Assembly (NCBI GenBank): GCA_947653505.1
Contig: CANTHI010000191.1
Span: 1 to 7,061, forward strand
Reading direction: 5' to 3'
DNA from: an uncultured Eubacterium sp.
Lineage (GTDB): Bacteria; Bacillota_A; Clostridia; Lachnospirales; Lachnospiraceae
DNA: 7,061 nt
Part shown: positions 403 to 7,061 of the stretch, one piece after another
How the letters are laid out: every line of letters starts with the position of its first letter
Position numbering within the stretch: position 1 is the first letter of the stretch
Translations under genes and position numbers: made by a program
The notes under the pieces: model-generated
Told to the model about the DNA's origin: nothing
Databases searched by the model: none
The model's input: only the letters and a program-made list of their open reading frames with translations

Positions 403-432
403 ATGACAGAGAGGAAAAAGCGAGGTGTCTGA
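403..432 (+). CDS. Possible 9-codon leader ORF, MTERKKRGV
   Basis: An ATG at 403 is preceded by a GGGGAC purine stretch (394-399) at usable spacing. The frame runs nine codons and stops with TGA at 430-432, one base before the ATG at 434 of the next gene. The layout would suit translational coupling or re-initiation. The peptide has no recognisable features, and the SD-like sequence may be chance in a purine-rich leader. It is listed only because its end abuts the downstream start. Confidence 0.2.
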   Translation: MTERKKRGV

Positions 433-433
433 A

Positions 434-2422
434 ATGCTGGTTTTGCATGCGAATCAGGAACAGGAAAAGGTATTCCGTGATCTGATACAGGAAATTGACG
501 GGCAGGTTGTATGGGATGGCCGGTTTGTCTTTATGGGGGACCGTCTGATACTGGAAGGACTGGTGCGGTCTTTGGTGTTTCATTTTGATATTCAAAAGAC
601 GGAGGTCAGTCTGGAGGAGCTGCCTTCCGGTCATACAAAGGAACTGGAGACAGGACAGTATCCGGGGCTGGAAGATCTGATTGCAATGGCGGTCTGGATG
701 ATCCGGCAATGGGAAATGCCGTCTGAAATGCCATCGGAAGGATTAGGAGAAATCATAATCAGTAAGACAGATTCCGGGCAGGAGGTAACGCTTCGTCAGG
801 TGGCGGAGCAGATTCTGGGCAGGTATCAGCTCGAGGCGGTATTTACAGATGAGGCGATTGCATTCAGCCAGTCAGGGATGCGGATTACTTATGAGGACGC
901 TGTCTGGACAGTGATCTCGTATGAAAAGGAGCATCCGCAGACAGCGGCACAAAAGCGGCTGTTAAAACTGCCGGATATTTGTAAGAAAAAAACCGGTGCA
1001 GATAACGGACGAAGAGCAGAAGCTGCGGGCAGAGAGAAGGCAGAGCGGGATGAGCAGGCAGCGGCGCAGAGGATGGAAAAGCTGCGTGCCAGAATCGGTG
1101 TGCTGGACCGTTTGTCTGAAATGCAGAAAAAGGCGCTCGTACGGGATATCCGCAATGACAGATTTTTGAGCGAACCTCAAAAAGAAGAGCTGTATTTTCC
1201 GATTCAGGATTATGAGTGCCAGCAAAGAATGAGCCGGATCGATGCAGAGCTTCGTGATGCAAAAGCGGCTAATTATGCGCATATCTGCAAAATGATGCAG
1301 GATGTATCAAAAGAAGAGCTGTTTGAGAAAACGAGACAGGTGGTTCTGGAAAGACTCCGCGAGCTGCGGATGCAGTATGGGAGTCAGGAAGTAAAGCAGA
1401 TCATGGAGCAGTCGCCGGCGCATGTGGAACGGGCAGAATACCAGGAGCTGATGGAAAAACTGGCTCCGTATGAGGATATTGATTTTGCGGAATATAAAGA
1501 ACCACTTCGAAAGATGCGGGAAACACTGGAGATCAAAGAAATCAGCAACCTTCTGACGCAGTCGCCGAAAAAAAGCCGCAGGGATTATACAAAACTGCTG
1601 CTCCGTATCGAAGAGCAGGATTTTGCCAGGGAAAACGCGGCTCCGTATGTGGAGCAGATTTTAGACTGGATCGCAGAGTCAGATAAAGCGAGGCTGAACC
1701 AGCTGCTGTTACATGTGGGAGCGATGGATTTTGAGACAGCTGCGTCACTGTATGAGATGATTGCGGAAGAAAGCTTTCTGCCGCATTTAAGAAAAGGAGC
1801 GCTGGCGGTCATATCCGGGCGTCTGGAAGAGATCAGTCTGGGTGAATGCAGGATACTGGTCCGGATGCTGAAAAAAAGTATGGACGGTGTGATCGCGGAT
1901 TATCCACAGCATTATTTTTATCCGGCGGAAGAAATCCTGAAAAAGGCGCCTGTTCCGGAAGAAAAAAAGCGGATCGACGCAGCGGCTGCGACTTACGCGG
2001 AGAAAAGGGGCATGTTTGAGTATCCGCTTCTGGTTGTGGATACATCAAAGGAAAGAAACGGCAGGGATGGGATGCTGCTGACGCCGGAGCATTTGTTTTA
2101 CAGTACAAGATTAAGCGGTTACAGGATAAAGATGCCAGCCATCCGGTCGGTTCATGTATCCTCAGGACTGCTGAATCATAAATCGCTCATTGTGGAAGAG
2201 ACAGGAGGGATCCGGCATAAGATCCCGTATGCGGTGCAGACAGACGAGCTGCAGAGCTGGGCGGAGGTGCTGGGACAGTTTATACGCCAGCTTCAGGCGC
2301 GTCCGGTGTCTGAAAAACTGACGTATGACGCATTGGAAGCAAATCATGCGAACTGCTGTGACCGCTGCGGATGTGTTTATCCGGAGGGAACAGTCTGTCC
2401 GGAATGCGGACGGAAACAGTAA
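434..2422 (+). CDS. Unrecognised coiled-coil protein with possible PH-like domain and C-terminal zinc ribbon
   Basis: I do not recognise this 662-residue protein as a named family. Seen: an N-terminal mixed region (about 1-175); a charged, Lys/Glu/Ala-rich stretch likely to form a coiled coil (about 180-226); and a long, mostly helical Glu/Lys/Leu-rich middle (about 226-520). Then comes a beta-rich segment (about 529-625) whose pattern (MLLTPEHLFYS, then basic strands and a closing amphipathic helix) resembles bacterial PH-like domains. It ends in a zinc ribbon with CxxC pairs at 642/645 and 655/658. There is no signal peptide or membrane segment, so it is probably cytoplasmic. Start choice: ATG 434 has GAGG at 422-425 with 8-nt spacing. 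An in-frame GTG at 425, with GAGG at 411-414, would add three residues. It is the first gene after the promoter and lies 26 nt before the phosphoesterase fusion, so the two are very likely co-transcribed. The PH-like call is inference; the ribbon is directly visible. Confidence 0.85.
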   Translation: MLVLHANQEQEKVFRDLIQEIDGQVVWDGRFVFMGDRLILEGLVRSLVFHFDIQKTEVSLEELPSGHTKELETGQYPGLEDLIAMAVWMIRQWEMPSEMPSEGLGEIIISKTDSGQEVTLRQVAEQILGRYQLEAVFTDEAIAFSQSGMRITYEDAVWTVISYEKEHPQTAAQKRLLKLPDICKKKTGADNGRRAEAAGREKAERDEQAAAQRMEKLRARIGVLDRLSEMQKKALVRDIRNDRFLSEPQKEELYFPIQDYECQQRMSRIDAELRDAKAANYAHICKMMQDVSKEELFEKTRQVVLERLRELRMQYGSQEVKQIMEQSPAHVERAEYQELMEKLAPYEDIDFAEYKEPLRKMRETLEIKEISNLLTQSPKKSRRDYTKLLLRIEEQDFARENAAPYVEQILDWIAESDKARLNQLLLHVGAMDFETAASLYEMIAEESFLPHLRKGALAVISGRLEEISLGECRILVRMLKKSMDGVIADYPQHYFYPAEEILKKAPVPEEKKRIDAAAATYAEKRGMFEYPLLVVDTSKERNGRDGMLLTPEHLFYSTRLSGYRIKMPAIRSVHVSSGLLNHKSLIVEETGGIRHKIPYAVQTDELQSWAEVLGQFIRQLQARPVSEKLTYDALEANHANCCDRCGCVYPEGTVCPECGRKQ

Positions 2423-2448
2423 GGACAGGGAAGGAGCAGAGGGTTTTT

Positions 2449-3717
2449 ATGGAACAAAAAAGAATGATCAATGTGCAGGAGCCTGTCATATATCTGAAAG
2501 GTGTACATTCGGTCGGAGTGATCGGAGATCCGGGATGTGAAGGACTTGGCACTTATAATATGAAAGTATATGCGGGCGCGCTGGAGGAAACAGCAAAAGA
2601 TGATATTACGCTGATCGCCGGGGATCTGGTTCCGGCAGGCACCAGCCATTATTACCAGATGATACGGGAAATGACACAGGTGCTGGCGGGAAATGATGTA
2701 TACACACTCAGGGGCAATCATGATACCGGCGCGTATACGGCATATTTTGGACGCAAAAACTATGCGCTGCTGGCAGAGCGGTTTGCGGTCGTTGTGCTGG
2801 ATAATGCAGGCAGGACGTTTGAAGAGGAAGGTCTGGAGCTGCTGGCACAGGTGCTTGCGATGGACGAGGTACAGCAGGTGGTACTGGCATTTCATATTCC
2901 GGTTCCGAATCATTTTATTTTAAACTGTGTATCCGAAGAAGAATTTTCCCGTCTGAAAAAGACTTATGAACCGTGGAAGGAGAAAGTCAGATACCTGCTT
3001 TGCGGACATGTACATTCACGGTTTGAGGATGAAGTGGATGGAATCCGGCTGATCTGTACCGGAGGCGGCGGTGCGATGATTGAAGACGTATCGGAAGAGA
3101 TCCGTTCCTGTGATGTGGAGCATCATGTCGTTCATTTTTTTGAAAAAGACGGAAAGCTGGACTATCAGATCGTGGATCTGTCTGAGGACTGTTACGCAAG
3201 AGAACGGAAAGACGGCATTTTAAGACAAAAGCTTGAAGAAACCGTGCAGGGCGAGCTGATGGCGCATTTAAAATATCTGATGTACGCAGACCGCGCCAGC
3301 CGCAGGGGAATGGAACGGATTGCCAATCTGTTCCGGGCGCTGGCAGCTTCGGAGTATTATCATGCACGCAATTTTTATGCCGTGCTGGAGCGTCCGGCAG
3401 CTTTTACGGAGGCGGTAAAGACGTACGTGCCGGCGGAACGGTTTGAATATGAGCGGATTTACCAGATGCTTGCGGGGTACGCGAAAGAGCATCAGTATCC
3501 GCTGGCGGAACAGGCTTTTTGCAGCGCTTCGGCTGCAGAAAAAGAACATGCGCTGCTGCTGGAGGAAGCATCCGGTATGGAAGCTTTTTCAGAGGATGTG
3601 ATTTATGTATGTCCAATCTGCGGGTATGTAATGACAGGAGATTCTGTGCCGGAACGCTGTCCGGTCTGCGGCGGGCCACAGCGGCAGTATGAAGTATTTG
3701 ATGGTAGAAAATCATGA
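2449..3717 (+). CDS. Metallophosphoesterase-rubrerythrin-rubredoxin fusion protein
   Basis: A 422-residue, probably cytoplasmic protein with three modules. Residues about 16-245 are a calcineurin-like phosphoesterase: Asp27 (motif I), GD 58-59, GNHD 89-92, His149 and GHVH 186-189. Motif I is VIGDPG, so the usual DxH histidine is missing. Residues about 256-372 are a ferritin-like rubrerythrin four-helix domain: GE at 268-269, ExxH at 302-305, acidic residues 330/333/335 in the third helix, ExxH at 364-367. These are the expected diiron ligands, although helix 3 needs an alignment. Residues 384-412 are a rubredoxin-type site, with CxxC at 388/391 and 404/407. Rubrerythrins reduce peroxide with electrons passed through the rubredoxin iron. 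Start: ATG 2449 is preceded by AGAGGG (2438-2443) at 5 nt. The frame is open further upstream to an ATG at 2371, but that would overlap the previous gene by 52 nt and lacks a clear SD. The phosphoesterase substrate is unknown. Its stop overlaps the rtcB start. Confidence 0.9.
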   Translation: MEQKRMINVQEPVIYLKGVHSVGVIGDPGCEGLGTYNMKVYAGALEETAKDDITLIAGDLVPAGTSHYYQMIREMTQVLAGNDVYTLRGNHDTGAYTAYFGRKNYALLAERFAVVVLDNAGRTFEEEGLELLAQVLAMDEVQQVVLAFHIPVPNHFILNCVSEEEFSRLKKTYEPWKEKVRYLLCGHVHSRFEDEVDGIRLICTGGGGAMIEDVSEEIRSCDVEHHVVHFFEKDGKLDYQIVDLSEDCYARERKDGILRQKLEETVQGELMAHLKYLMYADRASRRGMERIANLFRALAASEYYHARNFYAVLERPAAFTEAVKTYVPAERFEYERIYQMLAGYAKEHQYPLAEQAFCSASAAEKEHALLLEEASGMEAFSEDVIYVCPICGYVMTGDSVPERCPVCGGPQRQYEVFDGRKS

Positions 3718-4931
3718 TGATTTTAAAAGGAAAGTATAACGAAGCGAAGATTTTTACAGACACGGCAGACGACGCATCCATCGCACAGGTGCGTCTTTTG
3801 CTGGATCAGGAATTTACCGCGGGCAGCAGGATCCGGATGATGCCGGATATTCATGCAGGGGCGGGCTGTACGATCGGCACGACGATGACGATTACAGATA
3901 AGATCGTACCGAATCTGGTCGGCGTGGATATCGGATGCGGGATGGAGACGGTTGCGATTCGGGAAAAGCATCTGGAGCTGCAGAAGCTGGATAAGCTGAT
4001 TTATGAAAAGATTCCGTCCGGATATCATGTCCGCGAAAAGACACACCGTTATTTTGAGGAGGTTGCGCTAAAAGAGCTGTATTGCTATAAGAATATTCAC
4101 AAAGAACGCGCGGAAAAAAGTCTGGGCACTCTGGGCGGCGGAAATCATTTTATCGAAGTGGATAAGGACAGCGACGGAACGATTTATCTGGTCGTGCATT
4201 CCGGGAGCCGCCATCTTGGCGTGGAAGTGGCACAGTACTATCAGGAAGAGGGATATAAAGCGTTAAATGGCCGGACCAGAAAAGATCTGGATCAGATCAT
4301 CGCGGATTTAAAATCGCAGGGCAGGGAACAGGAGATTCAGGAAACGATCCTTGCACGCAAAAAGGAGCAGAGGACCGATATTCCGAAAGCGCTGGCCTAT
4401 GTGTCAGGGGAATTACGGGAGCAGTATATCCATGATATGAAAATCGTCCAGCACTATGCGCAGATGAACCGGCAGGCTATGATCCATGAGATTCTGAAAG
4501 GAATGAAGCTGCATGTGACAGAGCAGTTTACGACGATTCATAATTATATCGATACAGATGCCGGTATTCTCAGAAAAGGCGCGGTATCCGCAAAAGAAGG
4601 AGAAAAGCTGCTCATACCGGTGAACATGCGGGATGGCGCCCTGATCTGCACGGGCAGGGGAAATGATGACTGGAACCAGTCCGCGCCGCACGGAGCCGGA
4701 CGGCTGATGAGCCGTGCGGCGGCAAGGCAGTCGTTTACCGTATCAGAGTTTCGCAGGCAGATGGACGGCATTTATTCCACATCGGTAAAGAAAGAAACAC
4801 TGGATGAGTGCCCGATGGCGTATAAGGGAATGGATGAGATTATCAGAAATATCGGGGACACGGCTAAGATCGAAAAAATTATCAGACCGATTTATAATTT
4901 CAAAGCTGGCGAAGAGTGGCAAAAAAGATAA
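3714..4931 (+). CDS. rtcB: RtcB-family RNA ligase (3'-phosphate/5'-OH RNA joining)
   Basis: A 405-residue protein close to the length of E. coli RtcB (408). RtcB is a Mn-dependent, GTP-using ligase that joins RNA 2',3'-cyclic phosphate or 3'-phosphate ends to 5'-OH ends, in tRNA splicing or repair. All the hallmark active-site positions are visible: VDIGCGM with Asp72 and Cys75, GGGNHF with Asn144 and His145, VHSGSRH with His162, TIHNY with His276, and SAPHGAGRLMSR with His326, the expected guanylylated histidine. The spacing agrees with the E. coli metal ligands D75/C78/H168/H185. The start ATG (3714-3716) overlaps the TGA of the fusion gene (ATGATGA arrangement) and has only a weak SD, so translation is probably coupled to that gene. 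A second ATG follows at once, at 3717. No archease or RtcA partner is seen in the window. The enzyme looks intact; its physiological RNA substrate cannot be told from the sequence. Confidence 0.95.
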   Translation: MMILKGKYNEAKIFTDTADDASIAQVRLLLDQEFTAGSRIRMMPDIHAGAGCTIGTTMTITDKIVPNLVGVDIGCGMETVAIREKHLELQKLDKLIYEKIPSGYHVREKTHRYFEEVALKELYCYKNIHKERAEKSLGTLGGGNHFIEVDKDSDGTIYLVVHSGSRHLGVEVAQYYQEEGYKALNGRTRKDLDQIIADLKSQGREQEIQETILARKKEQRTDIPKALAYVSGELREQYIHDMKIVQHYAQMNRQAMIHEILKGMKLHVTEQFTTIHNYIDTDAGILRKGAVSAKEGEKLLIPVNMRDGALICTGRGNDDWNQSAPHGAGRLMSRAAARQSFTVSEFRRQMDGIYSTSVKKETLDECPMAYKGMDEIIRNIGDTAKIEKIIRPIYNFKAGEEWQKR

Positions 4932-5017
4932 AATCCGGAAAGATAAAATCGAAAAGATAAAATCCGGAAAGATAAAATCTAAAAAGAAAAATTTAAATAT
5001 AAAATCCAAAAAGAAAA
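4925..5017. repeat. Purine-rich tandem repeat, about 15-bp unit, between rtcB and the nuclease gene
   Basis: The unit AAGATAAAATCCGGA starts at 4925 and recurs with small changes. The G of AAGATAAAATC falls at 4927, 4942, 4956 and 4971 (periods 15, 14, 15), and degenerate copies follow at about 4986, 4998 and 5013. The array covers the rtcB stop codon (TAA 4929-4931) and runs up to the SD of the next gene (GAGGGGG, 5018-5024). It is almost free of C and G and would be unstructured in mRNA. It contains no terminator hairpin, so the nuclease gene may be read through from rtcB. Copy number may vary between strains. Confidence 0.8.
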
Positions 5018-5030
5018 GAGGGGGATCATA

Positions 5031-5969
5031 ATGGGAAGGTTCAAAAAGACGCTCGTATGTATACTGCTTTGCATGTTTACGATGCTATCGGGCTGCGTGT
5101 ATGCAGAATGGGATTTTACCCCCACAGGTACTGCGGAGCAGGAAGCAGAAATTAGTACGGATGATACGGATGCCGGTAAAAAAGCGGATCAGAACTCCAA
5201 AAAGCAGTTAAAAAATACAGATACAGATGAACCGTATATCATAGTAGACGATAATATACCAGGCTTTACCAAAGAAGAAATTACAACAGAGTCTTTTGAA
5301 CACTATTCTGATCTGGATGAGCTTGGCAGATGCGGTGTGGCGACCGCCTGTGTCGGCACGGATCTGATGCCGATGGAAAAACGCGGCAATATCAGCAGGG
5401 TAAAGCCTACGGGCTGGCACAGTGTCAGGTATGATTTTGTAGAAGGAAAGAGCCTGTACAACCGCTGTCATCTGATCGCGCACCAGCTGTCCGGCGAAAA
5501 TGCCAATGAGAAAAATCTGATCACCGGAACCCGCTATATGAATGTATCCGGTATGCTGCCATTTGAAGAACAGGTGGGGGATTATGTACGCGGGACGGGC
5601 AATCATGTCATGTATCGTGTCACACCTGTATTTGAAGGAGACAATCTGATCGCGGACGGTGTGCAGATGGAGGCGCTGTCTGTAGAGGACGATGGTAAAG
5701 GAGTCTCTTACAATGTCTATGTCTTTAATATCCAGCCGGGCGTGGAGATCGATTATGCGACGGGTGAGAGCAGGGAAAGCACACAGGACGGAGAGGAAGA
5801 TGCAGCAGAAGACGTAACGTACGTGATCAATACGAATACAGGGAAGTTTCATCTGCCGGATTGTGACAGCGCGTTAAAGATTCAGGATGAAAATAAGAAG
5901 AACTTTACGGGTGGACGCCAGCAGCTGATCGACAGCGGGTATGAGCCATGCGGGAGTTGTAAGCCGTAA
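5031..5969 (+). CDS. Secreted lipoprotein DNA/RNA non-specific endonuclease with Ada-like metal-binding tail
   Basis: A 312-residue protein of the EndA/Spd-type beta-beta-alpha-metal nuclease family, which cuts DNA (often RNA too) without sequence preference outside the cell. The N-terminus is a lipoprotein signal: basic start, hydrophobic core, and LSGC lipobox with Cys22 as the lipid-anchored residue. An acidic, low-complexity linker follows (about 27-65). The nuclease domain (about 66-245) has LGRCG, DLMP, YNRCHLI with the catalytic His147 (NRCH in place of the classical DRGH), the GENANEKNLITGTRYMN block with metal-ligand Asn candidates 157/159/162, and a conserved YNVYVFNIQPG end. After a second acidic linker, residues 264-312 resemble the Ada N-terminal metal-binding fold: FHLPDC (His274, Cys278) and CGSC (Cys307, Cys310). 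The SD GAGGGGG lies 6 nt before the ATG. The 99-nt gap to rtcB holds a tandem repeat. The likely role is nutrient scavenging, biofilm DNA turnover or DNA processing. Confidence 0.92.
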   Translation: MGRFKKTLVCILLCMFTMLSGCVYAEWDFTPTGTAEQEAEISTDDTDAGKKADQNSKKQLKNTDTDEPYIIVDDNIPGFTKEEITTESFEHYSDLDELGRCGVATACVGTDLMPMEKRGNISRVKPTGWHSVRYDFVEGKSLYNRCHLIAHQLSGENANEKNLITGTRYMNVSGMLPFEEQVGDYVRGTGNHVMYRVTPVFEGDNLIADGVQMEALSVEDDGKGVSYNVYVFNIQPGVEIDYATGESRESTQDGEEDAAEDVTYVINTNTGKFHLPDCDSALKIQDENKKNFTGGRQQLIDSGYEPCGSCKP

Positions 5970-6288: not shown

Positions 6289-7061
6289 ATGACAAAGATT
6301 GATATTATTTCAGGATTTTTAGGTGCAGGAAAGACGACATTTATAAAAAAAATGATCGAAGAGGTCTTTCAGGGACAGAAAATTGTACTGATTGAGAATG
6401 AATTTGGAGAAGTCGGCATTGACGGTGGATTTTTAAAAGATGCAGGGATTGAGATTTCGGAGATAAATTCCGGATGTATCTGCTGTTCTTTAGTTGGTGA
6501 TTTTGACAAAAACCTGAAGGAAGTACTGGAAAAATTCCATCCGGACCGGATCATGATAGAACCGTCTGGTGTTGGAAAATTATCGGATGTTATGAAGTCT
6601 GTCATTGATCTGGAAAAAGAACGGGATGTAAAGTTAAACGCTCTTGTAACCGTTGTAAACGCGGCAAAGGCTTCCAAGCAGATGAAAGCTTTCGGAGAGT
6701 TTTTTAACAATCAGATCGAATTTGCAACTACAGTTGTACTGAGCAGAACCCAGAACGTAACACAGGAAAAGCTGGAGCTTTGCGTAAAACAGATACAGGC
6801 GCTGAATGCAAAAGCTGCTGTCATTACAACCCCTTGGGACGAAATCAGCGGGGAAGCGGTTTTAAAGGTAATAGAGCAGAGTGATTCTATGGAAATGCAG
6901 CTGCTGGCAGAGGCACGGCATGAAAAGGAAGCAGCAGAGCACGCACACCATCATCATGACCATGACCACGATCATCACGGGCATGAGGGACATGACCATG
7001 ACCACGATCATGATGGGCACGAGGGACATGACCATGACCACGATCATCACGATCATGAGGG
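6289..7061 (+). CDS. COG0523/CobW-family GTPase metal chaperone, His-rich, 3' end cut by window
   Basis: The 257 visible residues of a G3E-family GTPase that delivers or stores metal (zinc, cobalt or nickel in known members); cytoplasmic. Motifs: Walker A GFLGAGKTT (9-17), ENEFGEVGIDG (36-46), the family metal site GCICC (62-66), and the Walker B-region EPSGVG (91-96). The guanine-specificity NKxD position reads SRTQ (152-155), a departure from the textbook motif. From residue 218 the chain becomes a His/Asp-rich tail built of 12-residue GHEGHDHDHDHx units, a likely metal-binding region, and it continues past the window end. The usual C-terminal CobW_C domain would lie beyond. Start: ATG 6289, with AAGAAG (6275-6280) as SD at 8 nt. 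The ATG at 6281 hits a stop after three codons. It has its own promoter and is separated from the nuclease gene by a structured element. The metal cannot be told from the sequence. Confidence 0.92.
   Translation, partial: MTKIDIISGFLGAGKTTFIKKMIEEVFQGQKIVLIENEFGEVGIDGGFLKDAGIEISEINSGCICCSLVGDFDKNLKEVLEKFHPDRIMIEPSGVGKLSDVMKSVIDLEKERDVKLNALVTVVNAAKASKQMKAFGEFFNNQIEFATTVVLSRTQNVTQEKLELCVKQIQALNAKAAVITTPWDEISGEAVLKVIEQSDSMEMQLLAEARHEKEAAEHAHHHHDHDHDHHGHEGHDHDHDHDGHEGHDHDHDHHDHE
6955..7050 (+). repeat. 36-bp in-frame tandem repeat coding for the His/Asp-rich tail
   Basis: Two 36-bp units (6979-7014 and 7015-7050) differ at only a few positions: GGGCAT/GGGCAC at the start and CATGAT/CATCAC at the end. 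A 24-bp partial unit at 6955-6978 is identical to 7027-7050. The pattern continues at 7051-7061. Thirty-six bp is 12 codons, so gain or loss of a unit keeps the frame and changes the number of His residues available for metal. Confidence 0.85.

Follow-up and report, generated by a model that had tools for sequence, protein, structure and literature searches.

A conserved protein joining a metallophosphoesterase to a rubrerythrin and a rubredoxin, with a possible role in redox-controlled phosphoester cleavage

In Bhr-HD-GYP, a hemerythrin-HD-GYP redox sensor phosphodiesterase of Ferrovum, the phosphodiesterase half has a diiron site of its own, is fused to a further diiron domain and works only in the ferrous form (accessible text of PMC9388753). 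Classical rubrerythrins carry a short-spaced rubredoxin, with 10–14 residues between its CxxC pairs (accessible text of PMC5114695). Within the metallophosphoesterase (MPE) superfamily, GDxG variants such as the purple acid phosphatases have GDxG as their first block and GDxxY as their second, and the plant enzymes are typically Fe(III)-Zn(II) or Fe(III)-Mg(II) proteins (accessible text of PMC4436580). Here we analyze a gene at positions 2449–3717 (+) of a 7,061-nucleotide stretch of DNA (the window) from an uncultured Eubacterium sp. of the Lachnospiraceae, whose product carries a phosphodiesterase-like MPE and a complete rubrerythrin/rubredoxin module on one chain, with the metal-site residues of both conserved. 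We found no paper describing a rubrerythrin-metallophosphoesterase fusion in the open-access literature: in the accessible part of PMC10434189 the terms 'rubrerythrin' and 'calcineurin-like' describe separate genes, and the accessible text of a rubrerythrin survey (PMC5114695) holds no such architecture, the word phosphoesterase being absent from that main text.

The fusion gene is a single open reading frame (ORF) of 422 residues without internal stop, and is preceded by a Shine-Dalgarno-like AAGGAG, read from the sequence, at 2431–2436 (+), 12 nt before the ATG. An in-frame upstream ATG at 2371 is also open to the fusion; most relatives start at or near 2449. The chain runs from a calcineurin-like MPE domain (residues ~18–248; 2500–3192, +) through a four-helix diiron rubrerythrin domain (~257–376; 3217–3576, +) to a short-spaced rubredoxin-like domain (~386–415; 3604–3693, +). 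The original prediction had placed a phosphoesterase, a rubrerythrin and a rubredoxin on one chain, and a Pfam domain search recovered all three above curated cut-offs: Metallophos (PF00149, residues 22–190, E 1.9e-11, 45.2 versus 21.5 bits), Rubrerythrin (PF02915, residues 262–373, E 9.7e-12, 45.9 versus 22.8 bits) and RUBY_RBDX (PF21349, residues 386–415, E 1.2e-10, 41 versus 26.5 bits). The NCBIfam matches, to the rubrerythrin equivalog (70.5 versus 200 bits) and to the cAMP-phosphodiesterase (CpdA) model PRK11148 (35 versus 225 bits), fell far below their cut-offs, so that, judged by NCBIfam, the protein belongs to neither family in its standard form. With E up to 1 allowed, Pfam gave neither a hemerythrin nor an HD-GYP domain in the fusion protein.

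The AlphaFold2 model of the full chain (pLDDT 88.6) resembles GpdQ/Rv0805 and the P. furiosus rubrerythrin. The four-helix diiron domain is predicted with confidence, with helices at residues 256–285, 289–313, 319–347 and 351–374; a failure of this fold, which had been named beforehand as a reason to abandon the assignment, did not occur. The best Foldseek match of the rubrerythrin part is 1nnq (P. furiosus), with a TM score of 0.84 on the target and an rmsd of 2.3. Because the VIA list covers mainly residues 1–313, the rubrerythrin fold rests on Foldseek. In structural alignments, the MPE shares about 15–19% identity with GpdQ, Rv0805 and CpdA.

The usual motif I of MPEs is DxH. Conservation was counted in 196 sequences, window protein included, which remained of 210 full-length sequences after removal of 14 identical copies; L070 and L071 are not included. 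Since 80 loci had been fetched through the patterns GDPGCEGL and LRGNHDTG, positions 26–33 and 87–94 were partly selected for; the proteins of the whole-chain search and the loci of a separate genome search were chosen independently of these patterns. Residues D27, D59, N90, H91, D92, H149, H187, H189 and H226 of the MPE are invariant (196/196), and superfamily motifs II–V (GD, GNH[D/E], H, GHxH) are present in every sequence: in the window protein they are G58-D59, in the form GDxxP (2620–2625, +), GNHD at 89–92 (2713–2724, +; within the LRGNHDTG pattern), H149 (2893–2895, +) and GHVH at 186–189 (3004–3015, +). Motif I reads G26-D-P-G-C30 (2524–2538, +; within the GDPGCEGL pattern), with DPG in all 196 sequences in place of the usual DxH. 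C30 is the sole invariant cysteine within the MPE domain, and Pro62 is invariant where purple acid phosphatases have the GDxxY tyrosine. The earlier call of a calcineurin-like phosphoesterase thus stands as far as the Pfam cut-off and motifs II–V are concerned, but the site is not a plain one, the motif I histidine being absent throughout.

The diiron ligands were named by alignment to 3mps and 1nnq, from what we take to be the iron-binding residues of these solved rubrerythrins, and the set of E, ExxH, ExxE and ExxH is complete. It comprises E269 (3253–3255, +; 196/196), which aligns to the GE of P. furiosus rubrerythrin, E302xxH305 (3352–3363, +; 196/196), E330xxE333 (3436–3447, +; 196/196 and 194/196, respectively) and E364xxH367 (3538–3549, +; 196/196 and 195/196). 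With each diiron position kept in at least 194 of the 196 sequences, the description of the module as a complete rubrerythrin/rubredoxin holds; the motifs on which it had been based (GD, GNHD, GHVH, two ExxH and two CxxC) recur in at least 195 of the 196, and E269, E330xxE333 and, in the MPE, H149 are further conserved positions that had not been named. In the rubredoxin (C388xxC391 and C404xxC407), C388, C391 and C407 are invariant and C404 is found in 195/196. The CxxC pairs are 12 residues apart in the window protein, which thus has the short spacing of classical rubrerythrin, and in 185/196; the distance is 10–14 in 194/196, with one sequence at 15 and one unmatched. Y276 and Y338 are also invariant, and their counterparts in the alignment with P. 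furiosus rubrerythrin and nigerythrin are tyrosines that presumably sit beside the diiron site.

A whole-chain protein search, in which 7,998 candidates were scored, gave 697 proteins at E ≤1e-3. Among the best 120 of these 697, query included, Metallophos and Rubrerythrin domains were found in all and a rubredoxin domain in 119, the sole exception (P0048) having lost one rubredoxin cysteine. A search of genome contigs found 91 relatives, of which 80 loci were kept, mostly from Lachnospiraceae and unplaced clostridia, and also from Butyricicoccus, Agathobaculum, Megasphaera and Acidaminococcaceae. Pfam scanning of 57 members (E 1e-3) detected Metallophos in 57/57 and rubrerythrin and rubredoxin each in 55/57; the two members that carry neither of the latter, P0193 and P0196, are stand-alone or partial. 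P0196, named as Spirochaetales (41%), is a partial protein with a GDPGC MPE in which Pfam calls MPE families only; by eye, its end looks like a first rubrerythrin helix. The closest relatives share 81–83% identity with the window protein, and the most distant one with the same layout (L088) has 40% identity. Separate genes for the two halves, with the fusion as an artefact, had been set out as the contrary outcome, and this did not materialize: the homologs are fused among the best 120 of the 697 proteins and in the 80 loci. Because of these two sets, and because the relative at 40% identity is alike, the fusion is no artefact, and the MPE-rubrerythrin-rubredoxin chain is a real, conserved family. 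Its names vary among the best 120 of the 697 proteins between 'metallophosphoesterase' and 'rubrerythrin family protein'; the source name of P0178, 'rubrerythrin/predicted phosphodiesterase', indicates that an annotation pipeline had already noted both parts.

Members of the family are distributed patchily and are not common. Profile A2 found the fusion in 5 of 299 sampled genomes from the family of G001, the centre genome included (E 1e-60), and in 1 of 398 from the phylum of G003, which was the centre itself (E 1e-45). With the MPE profile A4 (E 1e-20), it was seen in 2 of 341 genomes from the class of G003 (the centre and G717) and in 3 of 250 from the class of the Megasphaera genome, all three known from the loci. 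Extra rubrerythrin matches resembling separate genes occur in six of eight fusion-bearing genomes, and in five of the six these could be read as ORFs of their own. In a tree of 25 fused rubrerythrin domains, hand-picked from the loci, and 12 other rubrerythrin domains, a branch with support 99/96 separates the fused domains from the others, the nearest of which are the unfused P0272 and P0273. A single origin of the fused domains is supported by this tree rather than proven, since L088 forms a long branch and few non-fused domains are in the tree.

Length-limited searches that excluded full fusions gave 97 hits for the MPE half and 64 for the rubrerythrin half. No clear unfused MPE sister was seen among the 11 inspected of the 97 MPE-half hits (10 read, and P0178 seen aligned). 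Several of the 11 are truncated or frameshifted fusions, some on short contigs; P0217 is without the motif, and P0193 (43%), on a contig of only 988 bases, may be a genuine stand-alone GDSGC enzyme. We note that two proteins that look by eye like hydrogenase-like iron-sulphur proteins are fused to rubredoxin and rubrerythrin (L094, 1922–3961, −, 679 aa; L100, 1560–3608, −, 682 aa), in genomes that carry the MPE fusion too. The statement that rubrerythrins are normally stand-alone proteins is therefore only roughly right, with these hydrogenase-like fusions as a departure from it.

We consider it possible, with a probability of roughly 40%, that the fusion is a peroxide- or redox-controlled phosphoesterase that cleaves phosphodiesters and works like Bhr-HD-GYP. 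In such an enzyme, electrons would pass from an NAD(P)H-linked donor through the rubredoxin to the diiron site, which would act as a peroxidase, and whether the MPE cleaves its phosphodiester would depend on the redox state of this diiron site or, directly or via the rubredoxin, on that of any iron in the MPE. Cleavage would stop, or start, under oxidative stress and would be reset once the peroxide had gone. The GpdQ/Rv0805-like fold points to small phosphodiesters, for instance cyclic nucleotides or glycerophosphodiesters, as the likely substrate class. A narrower version, which we find rather unlikely, is a phosphodiesterase switched by peroxide and reset by its own NAD(P)H-driven module. 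The rubrerythrin would both sense and consume peroxide and hand its redox state on to the phosphodiesterase, whose first metal site would have been rebuilt as a redox-sensitive one (GDPGC, in which Cys30 is invariant and the usual His or Tyr is missing). If true, exposure of anaerobic gut bacteria to oxygen or peroxide would thereby be tied to a second messenger or some other phosphodiester.

A number of observations weigh against redox control. Rubrerythrins act as peroxidases and are not known to be sensors. In both Megasphaera members (L077 and L078) E333 is replaced by Gly; the rubrerythrin half of these two proteins may be altered. The whole-chain fits to the rubrerythrins of C. difficile (9fj2; TM 0.62, rmsd 11) and D. 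vulgaris (1b71; TM 0.31, rmsd 14.9) are poor, so that the placing of the helices and the rubredoxin is not equally good against all rubrerythrins. No separate full rubrerythrin was seen in two of the eight fusion-bearing genomes examined (G004 and G1018). No conserved neighbour names a pathway, the commonest adjacent clusters accounting for 4 of 73 upstream and 4 of 75 downstream genes, and a PerR box was not enriched upstream (5 of 56 regions at ≤3 mismatches, versus a shuffled mean of 3.1 and maximum of 8), which is a weak negative.

Redox-gated cleavage and protection of an oxidation-sensitive site, as had been proposed at the outset, are both compatible with the evidence. In the latter case, the rubrerythrin/rubredoxin half would keep the MPE metal site working, by nearby peroxide removal or by iron re-reduction, with no regulation. 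Conserved electron-relay residues and hosts that are mostly gut clostridia, presumably anaerobes, would suit such upkeep, as would the redox-active iron that MPE-superfamily sites can hold (accessible text of PMC4436580); against it, peroxide should on general grounds diffuse so fast that a tethered scavenger would protect little locally unless the sites were coupled, and most MPEs do without such a scavenger, which leaves upkeep somewhat unlikely. On the unlikely side as well is an independent bifunctional enzyme, a peroxidase and a phosphoesterase serving one stress response, for example the clean-up of damaged phosphoesters, and joined only for co-expression. Both halves look complete, their coupling is inferred only, and rubrerythrin modules are joined to other enzymes as well, as in the hydrogenase-like proteins; however, the fusion is kept from 83% to 40% identity, which, with no clear unfused sister among the inspected hits, suggests that the join itself matters.

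Purple acid phosphatases are active with a GDxG block. The presence of this block in those enzymes (accessible text of PMC4436580), together with the invariance of the remaining MPE ligand positions and the high constraint on the domain, makes it improbable that the MPE is a non-catalytic binding domain, a reading favoured by DPG in place of DxH in 196/196 and hence a motif I without the metal-binding His. Very improbable is a role of the fusion as redox guard of the RtcB-family RNA ligase encoded downstream (3714–4931, +; PF01139, E 1.5e-61), in the way that PYROXD1 preserves the activity of human RTCB, whose active-site Cys is prone to oxidative inactivation (accessible text of PMC12263435). 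Besides this human precedent, the RtcB ATG overlaps the fusion stop by 4 nt in the window, and L007 carries a different RtcB about 40 nt downstream of the fusion. L007 is, however, the only one of the 80 loci, and the same single locus among 86, with RtcB in the flanking DNA retrieved (at most 6 kb, and less where a contig ended), and no RtcB match was found in 20 of 40 fusion-bearing genomes (E 1e-15; some are metagenome-assembled and perhaps incomplete). Because of both, an RtcB role fits the window locus at most, and RtcB partnership as a general function was rejected; no RtcB-rubrerythrin link was found in the open-access literature. An assembly or gene-calling artefact joining two genes is practically refuted by the relatives, the full-length fusion recurring in independent genomes that include the complete genome of Blautia parvula (L074) and Schaedlerella arabinosiphila (L033).

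The neighbourhood of the fusion was counted with a simple gene caller, which missed the fusion itself in 4 of the 80 loci. A same-strand downstream gene lies within 60 nt in 23 of the 75 loci for which a downstream gene was called, window included, and these genes fall into 18 clusters, of which three recur: an uncharacterized one (4 loci), an alpha/beta hydrolase (2) and RtcB (2, the window and L007). A Pfam scan of these 23 operon-like genes covered 20 and the window RtcB, with L013 and L026 left out. The window RtcB-family protein lies under the NCBIfam cut-offs of RtcB-related models and perhaps belongs to a divergent subfamily. A tandem repeat of period 15/29 (AAAGATAAAATCCGG) runs from the end of its gene into the following intergenic gap (4922–5014). 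On the other side, 26 nt before the fusion, a gene at 425–2422 (+) encodes a protein of 665 aa that matches no Pfam family above cut-off and ends, by eye, in a CxxC/CxxC zinc-ribbon-like tail. Its homologues are found in 7 of 40 fusion-bearing genomes (E 1e-10), and beside the fusion in one other locus of the 80 (L042, 45% identity), so that neither this protein nor RtcB is a conserved partner. It is mildly odd that both window neighbours, this protein and RtcB, recur once more beside the fusion elsewhere.

Further downstream, the product of 5031–5969 (+) matches the DNA/RNA non-specific endonuclease domain (E 4.5e-24) and, weakly and at its C-terminus, an Ada-type zinc-binding domain (E 0.014); by eye, it has a lipoprotein-like start. 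At 6289–7061 (+) lies a gene for a CobW-family nucleotide-binding protein, whose histidine/aspartate-rich tail, encoded by a 36-base tandem repeat at 6955–7061, runs off the window end. Promoter- and terminator-like sites were about as many as in shuffled sequence, and Rfam gave nothing at gathering score. A mobile origin was rejected, with no relative in viral contigs, no full-length plasmid or phage match and no match of the window DNA in plasmids.

Were the two halves coupled, a rubrerythrin would here control a second enzyme to which it is fused, and peroxide would act directly on phosphoester chemistry in anaerobes of the gut. Without any coupling, the family would still be a conserved one that unites a rubredoxin and two domains with metal sites, is inconsistently named and has an unusual His-less MPE motif I.

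When compared with known systems, the fusion has the diiron ligand pattern, four-helix domain and C-terminal short-spaced rubredoxin of classical rubrerythrins (1nnq, nigerythrin 1yux and 9fj2), but here they follow an MPE and make up the C-terminal half of the chain, and the NCBIfam score is the low one given above. Its MPE differs from GpdQ, Rv0805 and CpdA, to which identity is low, in having GDPGC instead of DxH as motif I. The GDxG block of purple acid phosphatases is shared by the GDPG found here (196/196), whereas their GDxxY tyrosine is replaced by the invariant Pro62 (GDxxP). In the hydrogenase-like proteins of L094 and L100, the rubrerythrin is likewise built into a larger enzyme, where it lies with a rubredoxin at the C-terminus, but the partner enzyme is another one and their rubrerythrin lies elsewhere in the tree. 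Bhr-HD-GYP likewise fuses a diiron redox domain to a metal-dependent phosphodiesterase; both of its halves have other folds, their order is reversed and it has no rubredoxin. The comparison is one of working principle only.
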